NCBI GenBank assembly: GCA_013044185.1
Contig: JABEUX010000169.1
Coordinates: 1 to 32,817, forward strand
Length of the DNA stretch: 32,817 nt
Reading direction: 5' to 3'
DNA from: Vulcanimicrobiota bacterium
GTDB taxonomy: Bacteria; Vulcanimicrobiota; Vulcanimicrobiia; Vulcanimicrobiales; Vulcanimicrobiaceae
Numbering within the stretch: the first letter of the stretch is position 1; the number at the start of each line of letters is the position of its first letter. The notes beneath the pieces are model-generated. The model saw only the letters and a list, made by a program, of their open reading frames with translations. It was not told the origin of the DNA and made no database searches. Positions 1,444 through 16,206 of the stretch are shown one piece after another. A program made the position numbers and the translations under genes.

Positions 1444-2598
1444 ATGCCGAGTTATCACGCCGAAGGCGAACTTCCCGAAAAACGCCACATTCAATTTCGC
1501 CGCCCCGACGGCGGGCTCTATGCCGAAGAGCTCTTCTCGACGCGCGGGTTTGAGAGCATCTACTCGTTGCTCTACCACGAACGTCCGCCGACCGCGACGC
1601 GCGAGGTTCGCCAATGGCATCGGTCGCGCGTCGAACTCCACGAGAACGATCCCTTGCGCAACCGCCACTTCCTTACCGGCAAATTGACGCTCTCGGGCGA
1701 TGCGATCGATTCGCGCACGCCGATTCTCGGCAACGACGATCTCCTATTATCGCTCGCGACGGCGCGCGAGCCGATGGCGCATTTCTACCGCAATGCCGGC
1801 GGCGACGAACTGCTCTTTATTCATCGAGGCACGGGAACGTTCGAAACTCCTTTCGGAAAGCTCGATTACCGCCCGCTCGATTACGTGCTCATGCCGACGG
1901 GAACGACGTGGCGGATCGTTCCCGCCGAGCCGACCGATATGGTCGTCCACGAATCGGTCGGCATGGTGACGGTACCGCGCAAATATCGGAACGAGTTCGG
2001 ACAGCTGGAAGAACACGCCCCCTACTACGAACGTGATTTTCGCGCTCCGGTATTGGCGTCACCGAGCGTCGAGATCGGTTCCTATGAAATTCGCGTCACC
2101 AATCGTGGGCGCAACGCTATCTACATTGTGGAAAATCACCCCTGCGATGTCGTCGGATGGGATGGGTATTGTTACCCGTATGCCTTCAACCTCACCGATT
2201 TTATGCCGATTACCGGCAAGCTCCACCAGCCTCCGACGGCGCACGCAACCTTCGAGGCCCCCGGAGCCGCATTCTGTGCCTTCGTGCCGCGGCTCTTCGA
2301 TTACCATCCGCTCGCCATTCCGGTTCCGTATAACCATTCCAGCGTCGACTGCGATGAGGTGCTCTACTACGTGAGCGGCAACTTCATGAGCCGACGCGGC
2401 ATCGTCGAAGGGTCGATCACCCTCCACGCTGCCGGAGCACCGCACGGCCCGCAACCCGGAGCGGTAGAGGCGAGCCTCGGAAAACGGGAGACCGACGAAA
2501 TGGCGATTATGGTCGATACCTTTAAGCCGCTACGCCTCGCCCGCGCGGCGACGCTCTGCGAGGACGAGCAGTACTATCGCTCCTGGTCGACCGAGTAA
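1444..2598 (+). CDS. hmgA: Homogentisate 1,2-dioxygenase
   Basis: The product is a 384-aa cupin-type Fe(II) dioxygenase that opens the homogentisate ring to maleylacetoacetate in tyrosine/phenylalanine catabolism. Family landmarks are present: RNADGDE-like NAGGDELLFIHRGTG (near 117-131), the NHP/GWDGYCYPYAFN region (231-249), and the metal-ligand region YNHSSVDCDE (H298, E305) followed by APHGPQPG (H334). The H298-H334 spacing equals the 36 residues between ligands His335 and His371 of the human enzyme. At 384 aa it is shorter than the ~430-440-aa human/Pseudomonas type but fits the shorter form seen in various bacteria. The ATG at 1444 follows the CDGSH stop by 3 nt. It is convergent with fah, with 65 bp between stops. 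Confidence 0.95.
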   Translation: MPSYHAEGELPEKRHIQFRRPDGGLYAEELFSTRGFESIYSLLYHERPPTATREVRQWHRSRVELHENDPLRNRHFLTGKLTLSGDAIDSRTPILGNDDLLLSLATAREPMAHFYRNAGGDELLFIHRGTGTFETPFGKLDYRPLDYVLMPTGTTWRIVPAEPTDMVVHESVGMVTVPRKYRNEFGQLEEHAPYYERDFRAPVLASPSVEIGSYEIRVTNRGRNAIYIVENHPCDVVGWDGYCYPYAFNLTDFMPITGKLHQPPTAHATFEAPGAAFCAFVPRLFDYHPLAIPVPYNHSSVDCDEVLYYVSGNFMSRRGIVEGSITLHAAGAPHGPQPGAVEASLGKRETDEMAIMVDTFKPLRLARAATLCEDEQYYRSWSTE

Positions 2599-2663: not shown

Positions 2664-3959
2664 TTACCGCGCCGCCGAGAGCACTCGTCCGCGCGCGACG
2701 CCAAATCCGATCGAACGAAATCCGTCGCGCAGGCAACGGCCGAGGATGCTCACTTCATCGCCGTCCTCCAGAAAGGCCCGCTCGTCGCCGTCGGGAAGCC
2801 GCAACGGGTGCGCGCCATTCTCGGTGAGTTCGATCAAACTCCCTTGCGAGCCGGGACGAGCACCGCTGATGGTGCCCGAGGCAAAAAGATCGCCCGGGCG
2901 GATCGCCGCACCATTGCTCGCCGCATGCGCGAGTTGCTGCGCCTGGCTCCAATACATCCCGGCAAAGCTGGTCGACGAGATCGCCGCCGCATCGATCGCG
3001 CGCGCCCGCATCGCCGCGCTCGACAGCAACACCGAGAGAGCGATTTCGTAATTGTCGGGCTCGTGCCGTTGGAGATACGGCAACGGAGCTGGGATCTGCG
3101 TCGGCCCTGCGACGCGGAAGGGTTCGAGCGCCTCCGTCGTCACGACCCAGGGTGAGATGGTCGTCGCAAATGACTTGCCGAGAAATGGCCCCAACGGTTG
3201 GTACTCCCAGGCTTGAATATCCCGGGCGCTCCAGTCGTTCACTAAGACGGATCCGAAAATATGCTCGCGAGCACGCTCGATTGGGAGCGGTTCACCGAGC
3301 GCATTCCCTGGGCCGGCAAAAAAACCAACCTCCAGTTCGATATCGAGCCGCGTGCTCGCGCCAAAGATCGGCGCCTCGGCGCCGGGCAGCTTCCGCTGAC
3401 CGAGGGGCCGTCGAATTGGCGTTCCGCTTGGGACGATCGTTGCGCTACGGCCGTGATACCCGATCGGGATCCAGCGCCAATTCGGCAATAGCGGTTCGCC
3501 TTGTGGCCGAAAGATGCGGCCGAGATTGGTGGCGTGCTCGATCGAGGAGTAAAAGTCGACGTAATCGCCCACGATTGCGGGAAGATGCATCGTCGCCTCC
3601 TCGGCGGTAGTGAGCGCTTGCGGCATCTCGAGAAGTGCTCGATCGCCGCCGACGCGCAGCAGATCGCTCAGCCTCGCTCGCAGCGCGCGCCAAACCGGGC
3701 GTCCGGCCGCCATCATCGCGTTGAGCGTCTCGGCGGAGAGCGTCGCGCGATCGACGATGCCGTCGAAGAGGCCCGCTTCTGCGAGCGCGCGCAGATCGAC
3801 GATGCGTTCGCCGATTGCAACGCCGATACGACGTTCGCGTCGTTGCGTCGAAAAAATACCGTACGGTAAGTTCTGAATCGGAAAGTCGCTCTCCGCAGCG
3901 ACCTCGATCCAACTCGTTCGGTTCGGGTCGTGGCTCGCGTCGAGATCGAGCGCGTTCAC
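2664..3959 (-). CDS. fah: Fumarylacetoacetase
   Basis: The product is 431 aa from the GTG at 3959. It hydrolyses fumarylacetoacetate to fumarate and acetoacetate, the last step of the homogentisate pathway. The N-terminal SH3-like domain begins at WIEVAAESDFPIQNLPYGIFST. Catalytic and metal residues are all there: D135 and H142 in DFYSSIEHATNLG, E208 and E210 in ELEVGFF, D242 in NDWSARDIQAWEYQPLGPFLGKS, and a C-terminal ASGTISG. The track's start at 4082 would add 41 residues out of keeping with the family. The GTG at 3959 overlaps the stop of the upstream gene by 4 nt (GTGA), which strongly implies translational coupling with that unknown protein. Length is close to the usual ~420 aa. Confidence 0.95.
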   Translation of the reverse strand: MNALDLDASHDPNRTSWIEVAAESDFPIQNLPYGIFSTQRRERRIGVAIGERIVDLRALAEAGLFDGIVDRATLSAETLNAMMAAGRPVWRALRARLSDLLRVGGDRALLEMPQALTTAEEATMHLPAIVGDYVDFYSSIEHATNLGRIFRPQGEPLLPNWRWIPIGYHGRSATIVPSGTPIRRPLGQRKLPGAEAPIFGASTRLDIELEVGFFAGPGNALGEPLPIERAREHIFGSVLVNDWSARDIQAWEYQPLGPFLGKSFATTISPWVVTTEALEPFRVAGPTQIPAPLPYLQRHEPDNYEIALSVLLSSAAMRARAIDAAAISSTSFAGMYWSQAQQLAHAASNGAAIRPGDLFASGTISGARPGSQGSLIELTENGAHPLRLPDGDERAFLEDGDEVSILGRCLRDGFRSIGFGVARGRVLSAAR

Positions 3960-4888
3960 CTCAGCCACCCGAGGGCAACCAAATCGTCGAGCGGCTCGCT
4001 GACGCTGCAACTGCCGTACGAAAGCAACCCGTTCCGACGAGAGCGTTCGATCGCCGTCGTTTCGCAGCGTCGACCGCGCCACGAAAGCCCGTCCCCATCA
4101 AACGCGAACGCGGCGCTCGAGCGCTCTGCAAGGACGGCTTCGATCTCCTCAAAGGGCGCGCTCTGAATCGCAAGGCACGAAGCCACCAGCAGATTGACGA
4201 AGCCGTGCATCTCGAAACCGGTTCCGACCTCGCGATGCGCCACTGGATGATGTAAGCCGGCGGTCGCCTTCCACGCGACCCCATACTCGGCGCAGGCTCG
4301 AAGGTGCGCCGCGATCTCGGAGGCCGAAGGAAAGGCGGCAGCGGCGAGGCCGCCGCAGCGAATTTTCGAGCGCAGCCTGCCACGAGCGAGCGATTCGACG
4401 GCAGCGGGCATCTCGTGCTCCCATCGGTCGTCCCGTGGGAACTCCACGTAGCACGGGAGTTCGCGCAGCCCGAAACGGTCGAGCAACGCTCCTATCTGGG
4501 AAAGCACGGCACCGTAATTTTCCCGGGCGGCCAGTAACCGCGGCACCGGAATCTCCAGCGCGACCGGTACGACCGTCGCCGCACCGCGCGCTCCTTCGGC
4601 GAGCGTTGCGAGCTGCTCCGAGATCTCGTTGAGCCAGAGCCTCGATTCCCGATCTGCATCGAGGATAACGCTCGCTGCGATCGACGTGGAGCTCCCGTGA
4701 ACTCCGACGAGTTCCGAGAACCGCGAGAACGGAACGATAAATCGGCCGAGCATCCATGCGTGGGGAGCTTGAAGCGAGCGTCGATACTCATCGTAGGCCG
4801 TCGGCAATGCACGCTGCGCCGGCGGGAAGAGCCCGGCATAGTCGATGAGGTCGGTAAACATCGCCCGTGCGAGGGCCTCGGTCGTCAT
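3956..4888 (-). CDS. Conserved protein of unknown function, coupled to fumarylacetoacetase
   Basis: This is a soluble protein of about 310 aa with no signal peptide or membrane segment. I do not recognise a characterised family. Conserved-looking stretches are TDLIDYAGLFPPA at the N-terminus, HAWMLGRFIVPFSR, CYVEFPRDDRWE, IRCGGLAAAAFPSASEIA, WKATAGLHHPVAHR and MHGFVNLLVAS. The alternating strand-like and helix-like blocks, with a late Lys/His-rich motif, could fit a barrel-type enzyme (inference). It lies between the HPPD promoter and fah, and its TGA overlaps the fah GTG by 4 nt, so the two should work together. The locus has HPPD, HmgA and FAH but no maleylacetoacetate isomerase, so it is a candidate for that step. 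The start is uncertain: ATG 4888 leaves a divergent promoter, while 4960 would overlap the HPPD start; ATG 4858 (MFTDLIDY) is also possible. No clear Shine-Dalgarno sequence marks any of them. Confidence 0.85.
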   Translation of the reverse strand: MTTEALARAMFTDLIDYAGLFPPAQRALPTAYDEYRRSLQAPHAWMLGRFIVPFSRFSELVGVHGSSTSIAASVILDADRESRLWLNEISEQLATLAEGARGAATVVPVALEIPVPRLLAARENYGAVLSQIGALLDRFGLRELPCYVEFPRDDRWEHEMPAAVESLARGRLRSKIRCGGLAAAAFPSASEIAAHLRACAEYGVAWKATAGLHHPVAHREVGTGFEMHGFVNLLVASCLAIQSAPFEEIEAVLAERSSAAFAFDGDGLSWRGRRCETTAIERSRRNGLLSYGSCSVSEPLDDLVALGWLR

Positions 4889-4891
4889 CGT

Positions 4892-4908
4892 TCGCGCGGT
4901 TTGCGCGA
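4892..4908. promoter_or_regulatory. Palindrome in the divergent control region of the tyrosine locus
   Basis: The 64 bp between the fah-side gene (start 4888) and HPPD (start 4953) must hold both promoters. It contains tcgcgc-ggttt-gcgcga, an inverted repeat with 6-bp arms and a 5-nt spacer, typical in size of a dimeric repressor or activator site. No regulator gene lies next to it. In such a CG-rich genome a 6-bp palindrome can arise by chance. Confidence 0.25.
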
Positions 4909-4952
4909 GCGAGCACAAGGGCCCTGCCGACATCCCCGCTAAGACGCCCTCC

Positions 4953-6080
4953 ATGAGCACAACCCATCCCTCGCAGGCCGCCGACGCGACGACCCCGCTC
5001 TCGCAGATCGACTGGGATCATGTCGAATTCTACGTCGGGAACGCCAAACAAGCGTCGCAATTCTACCAATGCACCTTCGGATTCGAACAGATCGCCTACG
5101 CCGGCCCCGAGACGGGGCTGCACGACCGAGCGAGCTACGTCCTCGAGCAAAACGACCTCCGTTTCGTTCTCACGTCGAGCCTTCGCGGCGACGACGCGAT
5201 CGCCGAACACGTCAAGCTTCACGGCGATGGCGTGCGCGACGTGGCTATTCGCGTGAACGATACGCGTGGAGCGTGGGAGATGGCGGTTCGCGGGGGGGCG
5301 CGCAGTATTCTCGATCCAATCGAACGCCGCGACGATCGCGGGCGCGTCGTCGTAGCGACGATTGCAACCTACGGCGATACGGTTCACACGTTCGTTCAAC
5401 GCGACGGCTACGAGGGCGTATTTCTTCCGGGCTTCGTTCCCGCTCGCAAAACGTATGGGCGCTCGTCGAAGCCGCATCTTCTTGCGATCGACCATTGCGT
5501 CGGCAACGTCGGATGGGGAGAGATGGACGCATGGGGCGAGTTTTACCAAAAGGTATTCGGTTTTTCGCAGCTGATTTCGTTCGACGATAAAGACATCTCG
5601 ACGGAGTACACCGCACTAAAATCGAAAGTCATGAGCGACGCCCGTCACCGCGTGAAATTTCCGATCAACGAACCCGCTCACGGAAAGAAAAAATCCCAGA
5701 TCGAGGAGTACCTCGATTTCTATCGCGGATCGGGCGTGCAACACATTGCGATACGCACCGACGACATCGTTGCGACGATCGATGCGCTCCGAGAGAACGG
5801 AGTCGAGTTTCTCGATACCCCCGACTCCTACTACGACGATTTGCGAGCGCGCGTCGGCGAGATCGATGAAAACATCGACGTATTGCACCAACGAAAGATT
5901 CTCGTTGACCGCGACGACCAAGGCTATATGCTGCAAATATTCACCAAACCGTTGCAAGACCGGCCGACGGTGTTTTTCGAGATCATTCAACGAAAGGGAA
6001 GTCTCTCGTTTGGGAAGGGGAACTTCAAAGCGCTATTCGTCTCGATCGAAAAAGAGCAAGAGAAACGCGGCACGTTGTAG
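4953..6080 (+). CDS. hppD: 4-hydroxyphenylpyruvate dioxygenase
   Basis: The product is 375 aa. It converts 4-hydroxyphenylpyruvate to homogentisate using Fe(II) and O2. It has two vicinal-oxygen-chelate halves: the N-terminal one begins at DHVEFYVGNAKQASQFY (residue ~22) and the C-terminal catalytic one at HLLAIDHCVGNV. Iron ligands are visible as H181 (IDHCVGN), H264 (GVQHIAI) and E343 (FFEIIQR). The C-terminal gating helix region GKGNFKALFVSIEKEQEKRGTL is complete. The ATG at 4953 gives the normal family N-terminus. The track's 4845 start would run through the divergent promoter and into the neighbour. It is the first gene of the rightward run hppD-deoC-ALDH; the TAG is directly followed by the deoC ATG. 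No strong Shine-Dalgarno sequence precedes it. Confidence 0.96.
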   Translation: MSTTHPSQAADATTPLSQIDWDHVEFYVGNAKQASQFYQCTFGFEQIAYAGPETGLHDRASYVLEQNDLRFVLTSSLRGDDAIAEHVKLHGDGVRDVAIRVNDTRGAWEMAVRGGARSILDPIERRDDRGRVVVATIATYGDTVHTFVQRDGYEGVFLPGFVPARKTYGRSSKPHLLAIDHCVGNVGWGEMDAWGEFYQKVFGFSQLISFDDKDISTEYTALKSKVMSDARHRVKFPINEPAHGKKKSQIEEYLDFYRGSGVQHIAIRTDDIVATIDALRENGVEFLDTPDSYYDDLRARVGEIDENIDVLHQRKILVDRDDQGYMLQIFTKPLQDRPTVFFEIIQRKGSLSFGKGNFKALFVSIEKEQEKRGTL

Positions 6081-6959
6081 ATGACACAGGTCTGCGTCGA
6101 TGCCGTCATGCTCGAATCGCGTGCGAGCGAGTTGGCGGCGCGATCGATCAAGGGTGAGACGAAGAGCGCGTGGATAGATCTCGCGATATCCTGTATCGAT
6201 CTCACGACGCTCGAAGGACGCGACTCTCCGGGACGCGTGCGTTCGCTCTGCGCGAAGGCACGCACGCCGCTCCCGGGAAGTGACGCCCCCTCGGTGGCGG
6301 CGGTCTGCGTCTATCCAAATTTTGTTGGAATCGCACGCCGGGCGCTCGAGGGCAGCGCCCTTCGCATCGCCTCGGTAGCGACGGCATTCCCAGCGGGGCA
6401 GGCGGAGCTCGCAGTGAAGCTCGCCGATACCGAACAGGCACTCGAAGCCGGCGCCGATGAGATCGACATGGTGATCGACCGTGGAGCCTTCCTCAGCGGG
6501 GAGGAGGATCGCGTCGCCGCTGAGATTGCCATCATTAAGAAGCGATGCGGCGATCGACATCTCAAAGTCATTCTCGAAACCGGCGAGTTAGGAAGTTACA
6601 CCGCGATCCGTCGCGCGTGCGATCTTGCGTTGGAAGCGGGGGCGGATACCATTAAAAGTTCGACGGGCAAGATTGGAACCAACGCGACCTTTCCAACGGC
6701 ACTGGCGATGTGCGATGCGCTCGCAGCCTTCTTCCGCCGCACCGGAGTACGGCGCGGGCTCAAGCTTGCCGGAGGCATTCGAACGACAAAACAGGCGCTC
6801 GGCTACCTGGCGATCCTCAACGAAACGCTCGGAGCGCCTTGGCTCGCTTCGGAGAGGTTCCGGCTCGGTGCGAGCGCGCTACTCGACGATCTCTTGATGC
6901 AACGCGAACGCATGCGCACCGGACACTACACGCGCCCCGAGCGCATTCCCAAAGATTAA
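6081..6959 (+). CDS. deoC: Deoxyribose-phosphate aldolase
   Basis: The product is a 292-aa class I aldolase that splits 2-deoxyribose 5-phosphate into glyceraldehyde 3-phosphate and acetaldehyde. The Schiff-base lysine is K192 in DTIKSSTGK. The proton-relay residues match E. coli DERA: D129 in DEIDMVID and K228 in LKLAGGIRT. Phosphate-binding glycines (AGGIRT) are present. It is somewhat longer than the ~250-aa E. coli enzyme, like the long form in many Gram-positive-type clusters. The start codon abuts the HPPD stop with no gap. The following gene is an aldehyde dehydrogenase, which could oxidise the acetaldehyde. Being in one transcript with a tyrosine-catabolic dioxygenase is unusual. Confidence 0.93.
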   Translation: MTQVCVDAVMLESRASELAARSIKGETKSAWIDLAISCIDLTTLEGRDSPGRVRSLCAKARTPLPGSDAPSVAAVCVYPNFVGIARRALEGSALRIASVATAFPAGQAELAVKLADTEQALEAGADEIDMVIDRGAFLSGEEDRVAAEIAIIKKRCGDRHLKVILETGELGSYTAIRRACDLALEAGADTIKSSTGKIGTNATFPTALAMCDALAAFFRRTGVRRGLKLAGGIRTTKQALGYLAILNETLGAPWLASERFRLGASALLDDLLMQRERMRTGHYTRPERIPKD

Positions 6960-6971
6960 CGAGAGGTTTCG

Positions 6972-8405
6972 ATGAACTCCTCCGCTTACGCACCAGCGCT
7001 CGAGGGTACACGTCCGATCATTCGCACCGAGTACGGACTCTTCATCGGCGGTAAGTGGCATGCGCCCCAAAGCGGCCGATACGATGAAACGATCGACCCC
7101 GCCCACGAAACGGCGATCGCTCGCGTTGCCTACGGAGGCCCCGAGGATATCGCGCGTGCGATACGGAGCGCGCGTAAAGCCTACGAACGGTGGTGGGCCC
7201 CGATGAAACCGGCGACGAGGGCGAAATACCTCTTCCGCATCGCGCGGGCCATTACCGAACGTTCCCGCGAGATTGCGGTGCTGGAATCGATGGATGGCGG
7301 CAAACCTATTCGCGAGGCACGCGACTTCGACGTTCCCACGGCGGCGGCACACTTCTTTTACCATGCGGGCTGGGCGGACAAACTCGAATGGGTGCTTCGC
7401 GCGGGTCGTGCGCCGCAACCGCTTGGCGTCTGTGGAGCGATCGTACCGTGGAATTTTCCGTTGCTCATGGCGGCGTGGAAAATTGCTCCCGCGCTCGCCT
7501 GCGGCAACACCGTTGTCCTCAAACCTGCCGAGACGACGCCGTTAACCGCGCTCTTGCTCGCTCAAATCGCCCAAGATGCAGATCTGCCGCCCGGCGTTCT
7601 CAACGTCGTCACCGGAGACGGCGCAACCGGGGCTTCCTTGGTCGCCCACCCCGGCCTCGATAAACTCGCATTTACGGGTTCTACCGAGGTCGGCCGTGAG
7701 ATCGCTCGCGCGCTCGCAGGGCGATCGACGCGGCTGACGCTCGAGCTCGGCGGCAAGGCCGCGCACATCGTGTTCGCCGACGCGCCGTTGGACCAAGCGA
7801 TCGAGGGCGTCGTCCGCGGCATCTACTTTAACCAAGGGCACGTCTGTTGCGCCGGATCGCGACTGCTCGTCGAAGAGTCGATCCTCGACGAAACCGTCGC
7901 TCGGCTCCAGCAGCGAATCGACCGCCTACGCATCGGCGACCCGCTCGATAAGAACACCGACATCGGCGCGGTTAATTCGCGCGCTCAACTCGAGAGGATC
8001 GACGAACTCGTCCGCAGCGGCGTCGAGCAGGGTGCGACGCTCGTCCAACAGCGCTGCGACCTTCCCGAGCGTGGGTACTTCTATCGTGCTTCATTTTTCA
8101 CCAACGTCCAGAGTTCGCACCGAATCGCGCGTGAGGAGATCTTCGGCCCCGTTCTCGCCGTCATGACGTTCCGAACCCCCGAAGAAGCGATCGAGAAAGC
8201 AAACGATACCCCGTATGGGCTCTCGGCGGGCGTCTGGACCGAACGCGGCAGTAAGAATATGGCCGTGGCGCAGCAACTCAAAGCAGGCGTTGTTTGGTGC
8301 AATACCTACAACCGATTCGATCCTGCCTCGCCTTTCGGCGGTTTCCGCGAGAGCGGCTTCGGCCGCGAGGGCGGAATCCACGGCCTGACCGAATACTTAG
8401 CGTAA
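6972..8405 (+). CDS. NAD(P)-dependent aldehyde dehydrogenase
   Basis: The product is a full-length 477-aa ALDH-superfamily enzyme. Catalytic residues are intact: N161 in VPWNFPLL, K184 in VVLKPAE, the FTGSTEVG cofactor loop, E258 in LELGGK and the nucleophile C292 in GHVCCAGSR. The C-terminus [13 protein letters not shown] is normal. GAGAGG lies just upstream of the ATG at 6972. It sits 12 nt after deoC, and the next gene starts 6 nt after its stop. In deoC-linked clusters such enzymes are expected to oxidise acetaldehyde to acetate. A second ALDH homologue, short and lacking the active site, lies at 15361-16206; in other bacteria I recall the two as a pair. Exact substrate cannot be read from sequence. 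Confidence 0.92.
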
Positions 8406-11312: not shown

Positions 11313-12530
11313 ATGAACGACGTACGTAACGATACGGATTATATCAAAAATCGAGAACGCACGAACGCTCTTTTCTCAACTATTGCGCGCGATGCATTTT
11401 TCGATTCTCCTATTCCGCTGCGACATCCCTTTATATTCTATTACGGACACCTGCCTGCGTTTAGTTTTTTAACTCTCAATCGAGCCCATTGCGGAGAGCG
11501 AGCGATCGACGAAGGACTTGAAGAATTATTTCGCCGAGGAATCGACCCTGCGGATCGAACGAAGGCTCACCAACTCACGATCGAGCGTTGGCCTGATCGC
11601 GATACAATCGAACGCTTTATCACCGAATGCGATCGCCGAGTTCTCGCCGTGTTGCGGAAAAACGAACCCAAGGATCGCTTTGCAACGCATACGATTCTCG
11701 AACATGAGGATATGCATCACGAGACGCTAACCTACATCATTCATCAACTCGCCTACGAAAAAAAGCGCGCACCCCGTTTTTTGCATCCCGATGGATCCGT
11801 CCCACAAAGCGACCCCCTCCCCGTTTCGCGGGGGATCGCCGTACTTGGCCTGCCAAGCGATGATGAGCGTTTTTCGTGGGACAACGAGCGGGGTTCGCTC
11901 GAATGCAACGTTGAGGAATTTGCCATCGATCGCTTCAAGGTTACGAATGGCGATTGGCTTGAGTTCGTCGATGCCGGCGGCCCCTTTCCGTTTTTTTGGG
12001 AACGCGCGGAAGGACGGTGGAACTTGCGAGCCTGCTTCGAACGGATCCCCCTTCCCCTTTCGTGGCCGGTCTATGTAACGCTCGAACAAGCACGAGCCTT
12101 CGCTCGCTGGAAAGGCGCTCGACTGCCGACCGAGGCGGAGTATCATCGGGCGGCGTTTTGCACTCCCTGGGGCGAGACGCGTAGCTATCCGTGGGGGAAT
12201 GAGTCGCCCTCCGATCGTCACGGGAACTTCGATTTCCGGCGCTACGACCCGGAGCCGGTTTTTGCCACCCCGGCCGGAGCGAGCGCCTGGGGAGTGGAGG
12301 GCCTTTTCGGCAATGGCTGGGAGTGGACGACGACGCCATTTGCACCTTTTCCGGGCTTCGTTCCCCATCCAACCTATACGAGGTACTCCGCCGATTTCTT
12401 CGACGGTCGGCACTTCGTTCTCAAGGGAGCCTCGCCGGTAACGCCGCGCCGTTTACTTCGCGCGAGTTTTCGCAACTGGTTTTATCCGAATTATCCATAC
12501 CTCTATGCTTCATTTCGATGCGTTCGATAA
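11313..12530 (+). CDS. EgtB/OvoA/SenA-like non-heme iron enzyme (DinB_2 + FGE-sulfatase domains)
   Basis: The product is 405 aa. The N-terminal DinB-like four-helix domain holds three candidate iron-binding histidines: YYGHLPAFSF, then EHEDMHHET (HxxxH). The C-terminal formylglycine-generating-enzyme-like fold runs from FAIDRFKVTNGDWLEFVDAGG through RLPTEAEYHRAAF and LFGNGWEWTTTPFAPFPGF to LKGASPVTPRRLLRASFRNW. This architecture is that of ergothioneine/ovothiol sulfoxide synthases and the selenoneine synthase SenA, which join a thiol or selenol to a histidine derivative using Fe(II) and O2. No EgtD methyltransferase, EgtC or SenB/C is nearby, so product and substrate are open. The start abuts the preceding GGDEF-EAL stop (TAA ATG), implying co-transcription. 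The motif EHEDMHHETL differs from the classical EgtB HExxHxEL form, hinting at a divergent subgroup. Confidence 0.85.
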   Translation: MNDVRNDTDYIKNRERTNALFSTIARDAFFDSPIPLRHPFIFYYGHLPAFSFLTLNRAHCGERAIDEGLEELFRRGIDPADRTKAHQLTIERWPDRDTIERFITECDRRVLAVLRKNEPKDRFATHTILEHEDMHHETLTYIIHQLAYEKKRAPRFLHPDGSVPQSDPLPVSRGIAVLGLPSDDERFSWDNERGSLECNVEEFAIDRFKVTNGDWLEFVDAGGPFPFFWERAEGRWNLRACFERIPLPLSWPVYVTLEQARAFARWKGARLPTEAEYHRAAFCTPWGETRSYPWGNESPSDRHGNFDFRRYDPEPVFATPAGASAWGVEGLFGNGWEWTTTPFAPFPGFVPHPTYTRYSADFFDGRHFVLKGASPVTPRRLLRASFRNWFYPNYPYLYASFRCVR

Positions 12531-12580: not shown

Positions 12581-14026
12581 ATGACTGCACATGAAAAGCG
12601 CGTTCCCATCACCGTCGCCGACGGCGACGGCATCGGCCCGGAGATCATGGATGCCACCCTCCGGATCATCACCGCAGCAGGCGCTCGTATCGAGATCGAA
12701 AAGATCGAAATCGGCGAGGCCGTCTACAGCCGCGGACTCGACAGCGGCATCGAACCCTCATCGTGGGAGTCGCTGCGGCGAACTCAGGTTTTCCTAAAAG
12801 CTCCGATAACCACGCCTCAGGGTGGCGGCTTTAAGAGCCTCAACGTGACCGTGCGTAAGGCGCTGGGCATGTACGCCAACGTCCGCCCGTGCGCCTCGCT
12901 ACATCCGTTCGTCTCTACCAAACACCCAAAAATGAACATCGTCATCGTGCGTGAGAACGAAGAGGACGTCTACGGCGGCATCGAGCATCGGCAAACAAAT
13001 CAGGTCGCTCAATGCCTGAAGCTGATCTCTCGCCCTGCAAGTAAACGTATCGTTCGCTATGCATTCGAGTACGCTCGTGCGAATAAGCGGAAAAAAGTTA
13101 CCTGCTTCACCAAAGACAACATTATGAAATTTACCGACGGGCTCTTCCATCGAACGTTCGAAGAGATCGCGTTGGAGTATCCCGATATCGAGCACGAACA
13201 TTGGATCGTCGATATCGGCGCTGCGAAGCTTGCCGATACCCCCGAGGCCTTCGATGTGATCGTCATGCCGAATCTCTACGGCGATATTCTCTCCGACGTC
13301 GCTGCGCAGATTACCGGATCGGTCGGGCTCGCCGGGTCGGCAAACATCGGCGACCACTGCTCGATGTTCGAAGCAATTCACGGCTCCGCTCCGCGGCGCG
13401 CCGGTCAAAATCTTGCAAATCCTTCGGGCCTGCTCCACGGCGCACTGCTGATGCTGGTGCATATCGGACAGGGCGACGTCGCAGAACGCGCTCACAATGC
13501 ATGGCTCACGACCATCGAAGACGGCATTCACACCTACGACATCTTCAAAGAGGGTGTCTCGAAGGAAAAGGTCGGCACGCGTGAATTTGCCGACGCCGTC
13601 ATCGCTCGCCTCGGCCGCGAGCCGAAGGTACTCCCTCCGGCTCGCTACGCCGTCGGCGCGGCGATGGATCTCTCGATCCGTCCGGGCGGCGTGCCGCCAA
13701 AAAAGGAGCAGGTTGGCGTCGATATCTTTATCGATCAACGTGACGGCAACCCCGACGAAATCGCCGCACGTGCGAAGCGCGTTGCTATCGATGGTGTGAA
13801 GCTCGTGGTCATCGCCAATCGTGGAAGCAAAGTCTGGCCCGACGGCAACCCCGACACCTTCTGGAGCGATCACTGGTCGCTCCGGTTCGAAGGCAAGCCT
13901 TTCGATGGGAAGCGCGTCGCCGATATCATCGCGGCGATGCACGCGGCGGGCTTCGATGTTATCAAAACCGAGGGGCTCTATACCTTCAACGGTGAGCGAG
14001 GCTACTCGCTCGCACAGGGGCAATAG
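12581..14026 (+). CDS. icd: Isocitrate dehydrogenase, long C-terminal form
   Basis: The product is a 481-aa beta-decarboxylating dehydrogenase converting isocitrate to 2-oxoglutarate in the TCA cycle. Visible motifs are GDGIGPEIM at the N-terminus, the substrate site KSLNVTVRKALGMYANVRP (S-x-N-x2-x-R and R residues), RENEEDVYGGIE, the Tyr/Lys/Asp site, and the signature NLYGDILSDVAAQITGSVGLAGSANIG. The cofactor loop is IHGSAPRRAGQNLANP. The two arginines where E. coli Icd has K344-Y345 make NADP use plausible. About 120 residues beyond the core (GVDIFIDQ...GYSLAQGQ) match the extended Thermus/Rickettsia-type enzymes. It starts 50 bp after the EgtB-like gene and probably has its own promoter. 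The 376-aa antisense ORF over it is a compositional shadow. Confidence 0.93.
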   Translation: MTAHEKRVPITVADGDGIGPEIMDATLRIITAAGARIEIEKIEIGEAVYSRGLDSGIEPSSWESLRRTQVFLKAPITTPQGGGFKSLNVTVRKALGMYANVRPCASLHPFVSTKHPKMNIVIVRENEEDVYGGIEHRQTNQVAQCLKLISRPASKRIVRYAFEYARANKRKKVTCFTKDNIMKFTDGLFHRTFEEIALEYPDIEHEHWIVDIGAAKLADTPEAFDVIVMPNLYGDILSDVAAQITGSVGLAGSANIGDHCSMFEAIHGSAPRRAGQNLANPSGLLHGALLMLVHIGQGDVAERAHNAWLTTIEDGIHTYDIFKEGVSKEKVGTREFADAVIARLGREPKVLPPARYAVGAAMDLSIRPGGVPPKKEQVGVDIFIDQRDGNPDEIAARAKRVAIDGVKLVVIANRGSKVWPDGNPDTFWSDHWSLRFEGKPFDGKRVADIIAAMHAAGFDVIKTEGLYTFNGERGYSLAQGQ

Positions 14027-14687
14027 CATTCGTATCGTCAGCCTGCTCCCGAGCGCTACGGAGATTCTCTACGCGATCGGAGCAGGCGCCGCAAGCACGA
14101 ACGCTACCGGCACTCACCTCGTCGGCACTCCCGGAAGGGAGCGACGCCGCTACGATCGATCGCCACGTTCGCAGCGGAATACACGAAGGATCGAGCCCGA
14201 TCTCATCATCACGCAGGAGCTCTGCGGCGTCTGCGCGGCGATCTTCGAATCGTCACGATCGAGCCGTGCTCGTTTGAGCAGGTTCTCGATACGATACGAA
14301 CGCTCGGATCGCTCACCGGACACGCGAGCGAGGCTGCGCGCCCGCGCCCGGCGCGCATTGCACGATCCGCCGTTCGCGCCCGGTCACTGGACGCCCGACC
14401 TGCTCGAATTGCTCGGCGTGCGCTCGACGATTGCATTTCCACACGAACCCGCTCGCTCCGTGAGCTGGGAAGAGATCGCGGGCAGCGATCCCGAAAGCTC
14501 GCCGCGCCGTTGCCGAACTCGACCGGATTGCGGACGGCGCGATCTTCGCGCCGTCCGCGACGGGCGCATTATCGTGCTCGACGGGAACGCCTATTTCAAT
14601 CGTCCTGACGTGCGCCTCGTCGAAGGGACGGAGATGCTTCTGGAGGCACGCTCGGCGCTCGAAGATGCGCGGTATCGTCGAGCGTAA
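13992..14687 (+). pseudogene. Decayed BtuF-like cobalamin/siderophore-binding protein gene
   Basis: This remnant would start at the GTG at 13992 or near 14029, overlapping or abutting the end of icd. Recognisable BtuF-family segments appear in order but in different frames: RIVSLLPSATEILYAIGAG; then LTSSALPEGSDAATIDRHVRSGIHEGSS in another frame; then IEPDLIITQELCGVCA; then DLRIVTIEPCSFEQVLDTIRTLGSLTGHASEAAR in another; then DPPFAPGHWTPDLLELLG...SVSWEEIAGSDPE; and finally AVRDGRIIVLDGNAYFNRPDVRLVEG. Expected pieces between them are missing (the G-V-T-H-E-C-D region, the stretch after CGVCA, and the segment following DPE). It therefore looks like several short deletions rather than single-base errors. 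The open frame shown as 288 aa is accidental. The 3' end overlaps the antisense phosphatase gene. Sequencing or assembly error is a less likely alternative. Confidence 0.85.
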
Positions 14688-15360: not shown

Positions 15361-16206
15361 ATGTATAAGCTCTTCATTAACGGGAGATTCGTGCGCTCGG
15401 AGTCCGCGCGCAGCACGCCGCTCTGGGACGGGAAAGCGTTCCAGGCAAATATCGCGCAGGCGTCGCGAAAAGATCTGCGCGATGCGGTAACCGCCGCACG
15501 CGCAGCACAGGTTCGATGGTGGGAGCAAGACCCGCAACTGCGCGGCCTCATGATCTACCGCCTCGGAGAGATGATCGAGGCACGGCGCTCCGAGTATATC
15601 GATGCGATCGCCGCGAGCCTGGAGCGGGATACTCCGAGCGCTTCCGAAGAGGTCGATCTCGCAATCGATCGCGTCGTATGGTATGCGGGTTGGTGCGACA
15701 AATACTCAGCGTTGCTCTCCTCGATGAATCCCGTCGCCGGGCCGCATTTTAATTGCTCGACACCCGAACCGATGGGGGTCGTCGGCATCCTCGCCCCGCA
15801 GGCGCCGCTCTTTCTCGGAGCGCTCACGGCACTTCTTCCCCCGTTGGTAGCGGGGAATTCCGTGATCATTCTCGCTTCCGAACGCGATCCGCGCCCCGCG
15901 GTCGCCCTCGCCGAAGCGATTGCCCTCTCCGATATTCCAGCCGGCGTCGTCAACGTGCTCACCGGGTTTCGCAGCGAAATCGGCCCGGCGATGGCCAAAC
16001 ACGACGGTCTTGAAGCAATCGCTTGCGCGCGTGAGGACCTCGCGCAATGGAGCGAGATCGAACGCGAATCTGCGGCCGCTATCAAACGTATTCGCGCGTT
16101 TCCGCTCCACCATGCCGCCGATTACTTCGGCGACCGCGCCCAGTCGCTTGAGGCGATCGCAGAATTTTGCGAGATCAAGACGATCTGGCATCCGACGGGA
16201 TTCTAA
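15361..16206 (+). CDS. Short aldehyde-dehydrogenase homologue lacking the catalytic site
   Basis: The product is 281 aa from ATG 15361 (MYKLFINGRFVRSES), a typical ALDH N-terminus. The track's 15193 start would run through the divergent promoter. Homology to the ALDH cofactor domain runs from residue ~1 to ~220 (WWEQDPQLRGLMIYRLGEMIE, PEPMGVVGILAPQAPLFLGALTALLPPLVAGNSVIILASERDP, IPAGVVNVLTGF). It then jumps to a short end, FCEIKTIWHPTGF, which matches the C-terminus of full ALDHs. The catalytic-cysteine domain is absent, the PWNF asparagine motif is replaced by APQAP, and the cofactor lysine (VVLKPAE in the 477-aa paralogue) is alanine. The frame is clean and codon use normal, so it is probably a maintained pseudoenzyme or subunit, not decay. 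It is followed 8 nt later by a class II aldolase. Confidence 0.85.
   Translation: MYKLFINGRFVRSESARSTPLWDGKAFQANIAQASRKDLRDAVTAARAAQVRWWEQDPQLRGLMIYRLGEMIEARRSEYIDAIAASLERDTPSASEEVDLAIDRVVWYAGWCDKYSALLSSMNPVAGPHFNCSTPEPMGVVGILAPQAPLFLGALTALLPPLVAGNSVIILASERDPRPAVALAEAIALSDIPAGVVNVLTGFRSEIGPAMAKHDGLEAIACAREDLAQWSEIERESAAAIKRIRAFPLHHAADYFGDRAQSLEAIAEFCEIKTIWHPTGF

Follow-up and report, generated by a model that had tools for sequence, protein, structure and literature searches.

Homogentisate breakdown is a textbook pathway, and the closest described counterpart of the protein family presented here is its maleylacetoacetate isomerase, MaiA (GST zeta, TIGR01262), a thioredoxin-fold GST of ~210 aa that uses glutathione, the role of which in MaiA is one of thiol addition. 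A non-GST solution to an analogous cis-trans isomerization is also known, namely MDMPI (PF11716), which has a DinB-type fold and is thiol-dependent. Furthermore, a maleylacetoacetate isomerase activity that does not depend on glutathione was reportedly found by Hagedorn and Chapman (J Bacteriol, 1985) in Gram-positive bacteria, among them Bacillus megaterium (now Priestia megaterium). We know of no gene or protein sequence that was ever attached to this activity, and a search of the literature outside subscription journals returned no described gene for a glutathione-independent maleylacetoacetate isomerase. To our knowledge, Gram-positive bacteria, archaea and many uncultured phyla have one enzyme of the homogentisate pathway without a gene.

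The locus described here carries a gene, FAI (our own label for the protein and its family), that shares with MaiA the proposed reaction and the operon position beside fah and hmgA. Unlike MaiA, it specifies a predicted TIM barrel of ~310 aa, has no sequence relation to the GST enzyme and is found where maiA is absent. On the basis of genomic context and predicted structure, we consider FAI very likely to be a new, glutathione-independent maleylacetoacetate isomerase; what would be new is the protein family, the reaction itself being known.

The FAI gene and its neighbours

Within the window (the whole stretch of 32,817 nt that was analysed), FAI is a minus-strand ORF of 310 codons, running from an ATG at 4888 to a TGA at 3956–3958 (Table 1). 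A longer, GTG-started frame extends to 4960; homologues from the same genus, with 64–90 % identity, start at the methionine at 4888. The FAI stop overlaps the fah start (GTG, 3957–3959) by 4 nt (GTGA, 3956–3959), exactly as the preliminary description had it, and the control region that it regarded as common to FAI and the divergent HPPD gene measures 64 bp up to the HPPD ATG at 4953. The ORF is a genuine gene. The pathway genes recognized earlier (HPPD, HmgA and FAH) are indeed in the window: FAH and HPPD score above curated cut-offs, whilst HmgA is short and divergent and lies far under the classical model (68 bits for TIGR01015, where the cut-off is 511).

Table 1. Coordinates of the FAI gene, its pathway neighbours and the codons of invariant residues in the window
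Feature	Position	Strand	Evidence and remarks
FAI, candidate glutathione-independent maleylacetoacetate isomerase	3956..4888	-	ORF, 310 aa; 96-member aligned family
FAI/HPPD divergent intergenic region	4889..4952		64 bp, from sequence
Fumarylacetoacetase (fah)	2664..3959	-	TIGR01266 538 bits, cut-off 375, E 1.5e-161; GTG start
4-Hydroxyphenylpyruvate dioxygenase (HPPD)	4953..6080	+	TIGR01263 455 bits, cut-off 277, E 1.9e-136; divergent from FAI
Short divergent homogentisate 1,2-dioxygenase (HmgA)	1444..2598	+	HgmA_N and HgmA_C over Pfam cut-off; convergent with fah
D16, invariant 96/96	4841..4843	-	Motif LIDYAGLFPPA, end of beta strand 1 (alignment, DSSP)
E112, invariant 96/96	4553..4555	-	End of barrel strand E106-114 (alignment, DSSP)
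K175, invariant 96/96, candidate Schiff-base lysine	4364..4366	-	KxRxGG, strand E173-177
K207, invariant 96/96	4268..4270	-	KATAGLHH, strand E206-209
H213, invariant 96/96	4250..4252	-	Loop after strand E206-209
C294, invariant 96/96, candidate internal thiol	4007..4009	-	GSCS, just past last barrel strand

This short, divergent dioxygenase type (1444–2598) travels with FAI. In two genomes whose FAI lies away from fah (L041 and L044), the dioxygenase near fah matches the short type weakly; in L041, the one of the two that was tested, it is a classical full-length enzyme. Directly after HPPD follow DeoC (6081–6959, plus strand) and an aldehyde dehydrogenase (6972–8405, plus strand). At least seven other genomes of the phylum (G026, G034, G048, G050, G052, G054 and G057) likewise have DeoC close to FAI, which makes it a conserved extra neighbour. 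Elsewhere in the window, a half-length aldehyde dehydrogenase (15361–16206, plus strand) has a Pfam match restricted to positions 20–210 of 461, and the catalytic half is therefore missing; a binding-protein gene at 13821–14687 (plus strand) looks frameshifted, with its start and body in different frames.

Linkage to fah and the distribution of maiA

Among 148 genomes of the phylum, contigs of which are filed publicly as Candidatus Eremiobacterota, 91 encode both FAI and FAH, one (82 % complete) FAI only, seven a true FAH only and 49 neither. FAI is thus present in 91 of the 98 genomes with a true FAH (Fisher p ~2e-30, uncorrected for relatedness, so that relatives are counted as if they were independent). 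In 88 of the 92 FAI genomes fah lies directly downstream on the same strand, with match ends nearly always within 60 nt. The seven FAH-only genomes remained FAI-negative with a 96-sequence profile and had no maiA over the cut-off either; at the fah genes that were inspected in them, no substitute isomerase was evident alongside. As such, some organisms appear to manage otherwise.

Scanning GTDB representative genomes yielded at least 557 confirmed FAI-encoding stretches, of which the best 80 were analysed. These derive from archaea (Marine Group II/III, Heimdall) and from bacteria of the Bacillota, Cyanobacteria, Planctomycetota, Acidobacteriota, Chloroflexota and Actinomycetota, as well as Rhodothermia, Balneolia, Ignavibacteria and further Eremiobacterota. 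FAH directly follows FAI in ~71 of 78 decidable loci (70 scored by script and one, L052, by eye, its FAH frame being cut by the contig end), a count that includes the Eremiobacterota relatives and leaves out two of the 80 loci at contig ends. Outside the phylum, this order is shared by archaea, Bacillota, Cyanobacteria, Planctomycetota, Actinomycetota and Bacteroidota-type lineages. Homologues unlinked to tyrosine catabolism, which would have weakened the preliminary reading, are therefore the exception, the family being overwhelmingly found directly upstream of fah. In seven of the 80 loci FAH does not adjoin FAI; one of them, from a Heimdallarchaeon (L078, 8789–12006), lacks fah altogether, its FAI being flanked by an enolase-superfamily gene and a glycosyltransferase. 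The surrounding gene orders vary (hppD-hgd-FAI-fah, hppD-FAI-fah-hgd, or with a divergent hppD), which argues against the FAI-fah pair being left over from a single arrangement. Moreover, pairwise distances of FAI and FAH correlate with r 0.67, a value reached in none of 2000 permutations, as co-inheritance predicts. One contig filed as Moorena sp. (L081) carries an FAI 96 % identical to a Priestia megaterium plasmid protein and is probably a contaminant.

The earlier remark that no MaiA lies in the window can be extended to the source genome (2.08 Mb, 73 % complete), which had no match to the maiA profile even at E ≤ 10. No maiA exceeded the cut-off in any of the 148 phylum genomes or in any of 50 FAI-bearing genomes tested from diverse phyla outside it, such that FAI homologues do not co-occur with maiA in either set; the same profile scored over the cut-off in one of 14 control genomes. 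A strong glutathione synthetase (gshB, > 150 bits) was detected in 3 of the 148 phylum genomes and 6 of the 50 outside it (four cyanobacteria and two planctomycetes); gshB alone was searched for, so an absence of glutathione is deduced from this one gene. The suggestion that FAI belongs to lineages without glutathione accordingly describes the typical case, in which the synthetase is missing, but is not universal, as these four cyanobacteria and two planctomycetes have both. In the window, an EgtB-like protein (11313–12530, plus strand; FGE-sulfatase and a weak DinB_2 match) suggests that a thiol of the ergothioneine type is made, no glutathione synthetase having been detected in the genome. 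The MDMPI profile (PF11716) found no match in the source genome and exceeded its cut-off in two of the 148 phylum genomes, marginally in both.

As a contrast between FAI and maiA we also tried the phylum of G196, which has no true maiA and was therefore uninformative, and we used plasmids. FAI was found on 24 plasmid records (Streptomyces, Priestia, Pseudonocardia, Rhodococcus, Nonomuraea, Kovacikia and Tsukamurella), labelled 'hypothetical protein' wherever annotated, FAH on 119 and MaiA on 231. Among the matches listed, the MaiA plasmids are all from Pseudomonadota, with no FAI record among them. The Priestia operon reads hppD-FAI-fahA-hisC-hgd and that of Tsukamurella hppD-hgd-FAI-fahA, whilst plasmids of Acinetobacter, Serratia and Agrobacterium carry fahA-maiA, extended to hmgA-fahA-maiA in the latter two. 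The plasmid gene for FAI in Priestia megaterium is LIT33_RS30610 (protein WP_235565656.1). Comparison of the Priestia and Tsukamurella operons with those of Serratia and Agrobacterium bears out the view that FAI sits where maiA would be expected; in the compact Gram-positive operons, all other enzymes of the ring-cleavage pathway are present and FAI occupies the maiA slot. A Tropicibacter plasmid has hmgA-fahA with neither FAI nor maiA adjoining, and on one Streptomyces plasmid an MDMPI-type gene lies upstream of FAI-fahA.

Predicted structure and invariant residues

The FAI protein found no match in Pfam, NCBIfam or PDB sequences, in keeping with its first description as uncharacterized. None of its 96 aligned relatives matched Pfam, DeoC and MDMPI_N/DinB-type domains included; against NCBIfam the 96 gave two stray weak matches to unrelated families and no match to the maiA profile, and a PDB sequence search with the 96-member profile returned nothing credible. 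AlphaFold models of the window protein (mean pLDDT 95.1) and of an Alteribacillus relative (95.2), with pTM 0.92, are both alpha/beta (TIM) barrels. Foldseek matched the FAI fold to numerous TIM barrels with little sequence identity. Ranked by coverage-normalized score, deoxyribose-phosphate aldolases (DERA) came first, with further class I aldolases high on the list; several DERA entries had a probability of 1.00 and TMt of 0.55–0.68, the highest (0.68) being 1ub3. No GST was among the top structural matches, and a viral structure library gave no match at E ≤ 0.001.

Like DERA and other class I aldolases, FAI is a predicted TIM barrel with lysines on two successive strands. It differs from DERA in having additional conserved Asp, Glu, Arg, His and Cys residues and in its genomic context, and the profile–profile comparison is non-significant (hhalign probability 0.2 %), although its register pairs K175 and K207 with DERA K167 and K201. 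Direct DERA homology found no significant support, hhalign against the DeoC of the window and against a 32-sequence DERA alignment being non-significant and global hhalign giving nothing usable; on the predicted structure, membership of the DERA superfamily is nonetheless plausible. Other identities were discarded: a canonical GST/MaiA by the lack of a TIGR01262 match and by the TIM-barrel fold, MDMPI by the absence of its domain from the 96 members and of any match in the source genome, and a maleate cis-trans isomerase of the Asp/Glu racemase type by the TIM barrel and by one conserved Cys as against two catalytic ones. The objection foreseen at the outset, a structural match to an unrelated enzyme class, is answered in part. 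The fold is unlike GST and, by coverage, nearest to class I aldolases, but a TIM barrel with a rich invariant active site is a plausible scaffold, which points to an unrelated origin, not an unrelated function.

Across the 96 members, D16, E112, K175, R177, K207, T209–H213, G292, C294 and P299 are invariant, and most of these sit at strand ends (DSSP), where TIM barrels place their active sites. C294 is the sole Cys column conserved above 60 %. All four motifs quoted in the preliminary description are present in the protein, and three of them (TDLIDYAGLFPPA, KATAGLHHP and HGFVNLL) hold residues that are invariant or nearly so. Three conserved peptides served as seeds for the genome scan, and the invariance of KATAGLHH, GSCS and DYAGLFPPA is therefore partly selected; members found without the seed peptides show the same residues, except for one decayed copy. 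This copy (L179; G061:C3:2038934-2039761) lacks KATAGLHH, R177 and C294, and still lies directly upstream of fah.

Proposed function and competing readings

Since the isomerization is the only step without a gene in FAI operons, and FAI stands in the position of maiA, we infer an isomerase role, and the preliminary proposal of a replacement isomerase is supported as a candidate function. FAI would act after homogentisate dioxygenase and before fumarylacetoacetase, turning the cis compound maleylacetoacetate into the trans compound fumarylacetoacetate without glutathione, and would replace the unrelated GST-zeta enzyme. With regard to mechanism, K175 or K207 may form a Schiff base (iminium) with the 4-oxo group of the substrate, whilst the C294 thiolate would undergo Michael addition at C2 in place of the glutathione thiol, paralleling the part that glutathione plays in MaiA; the C2–C3 bond could then rotate, and elimination would free the trans product. 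Covalent catalysis of this kind inside the protein, by a lysine iminium and an internal cysteine thiol, would need no soluble thiol cofactor, and we offer it as a tentative scheme.

The gene for a glutathione-independent isomerase has apparently never been identified before. The activity reported from Gram-positive bacteria in 1985 is that expected of FAI, in the same kind of bacteria, and the Priestia plasmid operon carries the gene; if that record is right, FAI would supply the sequence for a 40-year-old orphan activity. It would also fill the missing-gene gap in the pathway, replacing the label 'hypothetical protein' in hundreds of genomes (at least 557 stretches), and would mean that the reaction carried out in people by GSTZ1 has a second chemical solution, unrelated to the first.

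Several observations count against an isomerase function: the seven phylum genomes with FAH and neither FAI nor maiA, the decayed G061 copy, the seven of 80 loci away from fah, the presence of FAI in glutathione-containing cyanobacteria and the non-significance of class I aldolase homology by profile comparison. The seven FAH genomes, together with class I aldolases being the nearest folds, would also suit a protein that acts in the tyrosine/homogentisate pathway on another compound, as an aldolase or in side-product detoxification, with maleylacetoacetate isomerizing without an enzyme or via low-molecular-weight thiols, which are known to bring this about slowly. We regard this as unlikely, because every other step from hydroxyphenylpyruvate onwards has a gene, leaving the isomerase slot alone vacant, and because FAI takes the place of maiA in compact operons and does not turn up among the maiA listings.

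The constant place of FAI directly upstream of fah, with ends often overlapping or near-abutting, and the co-variation of FAI and FAH distances would likewise be expected of a non-catalytic partner or stabilizer of a fumarylacetoacetase that itself accepts maleylacetoacetate. The invariance, in archaea and bacteria alike, of no fewer than six polar or charged residues at the ends of barrel strands, as is typical of an active site, and the copies that lie away from fah make such a partner highly improbable compared with an isomerase. Lastly, the seven unlinked loci might be taken to mean that FAI has nothing to do with the pathway and adjoins fah by accident or through common inheritance, which is scarcely credible given that many phyla show the same linkage within differing gene orders.
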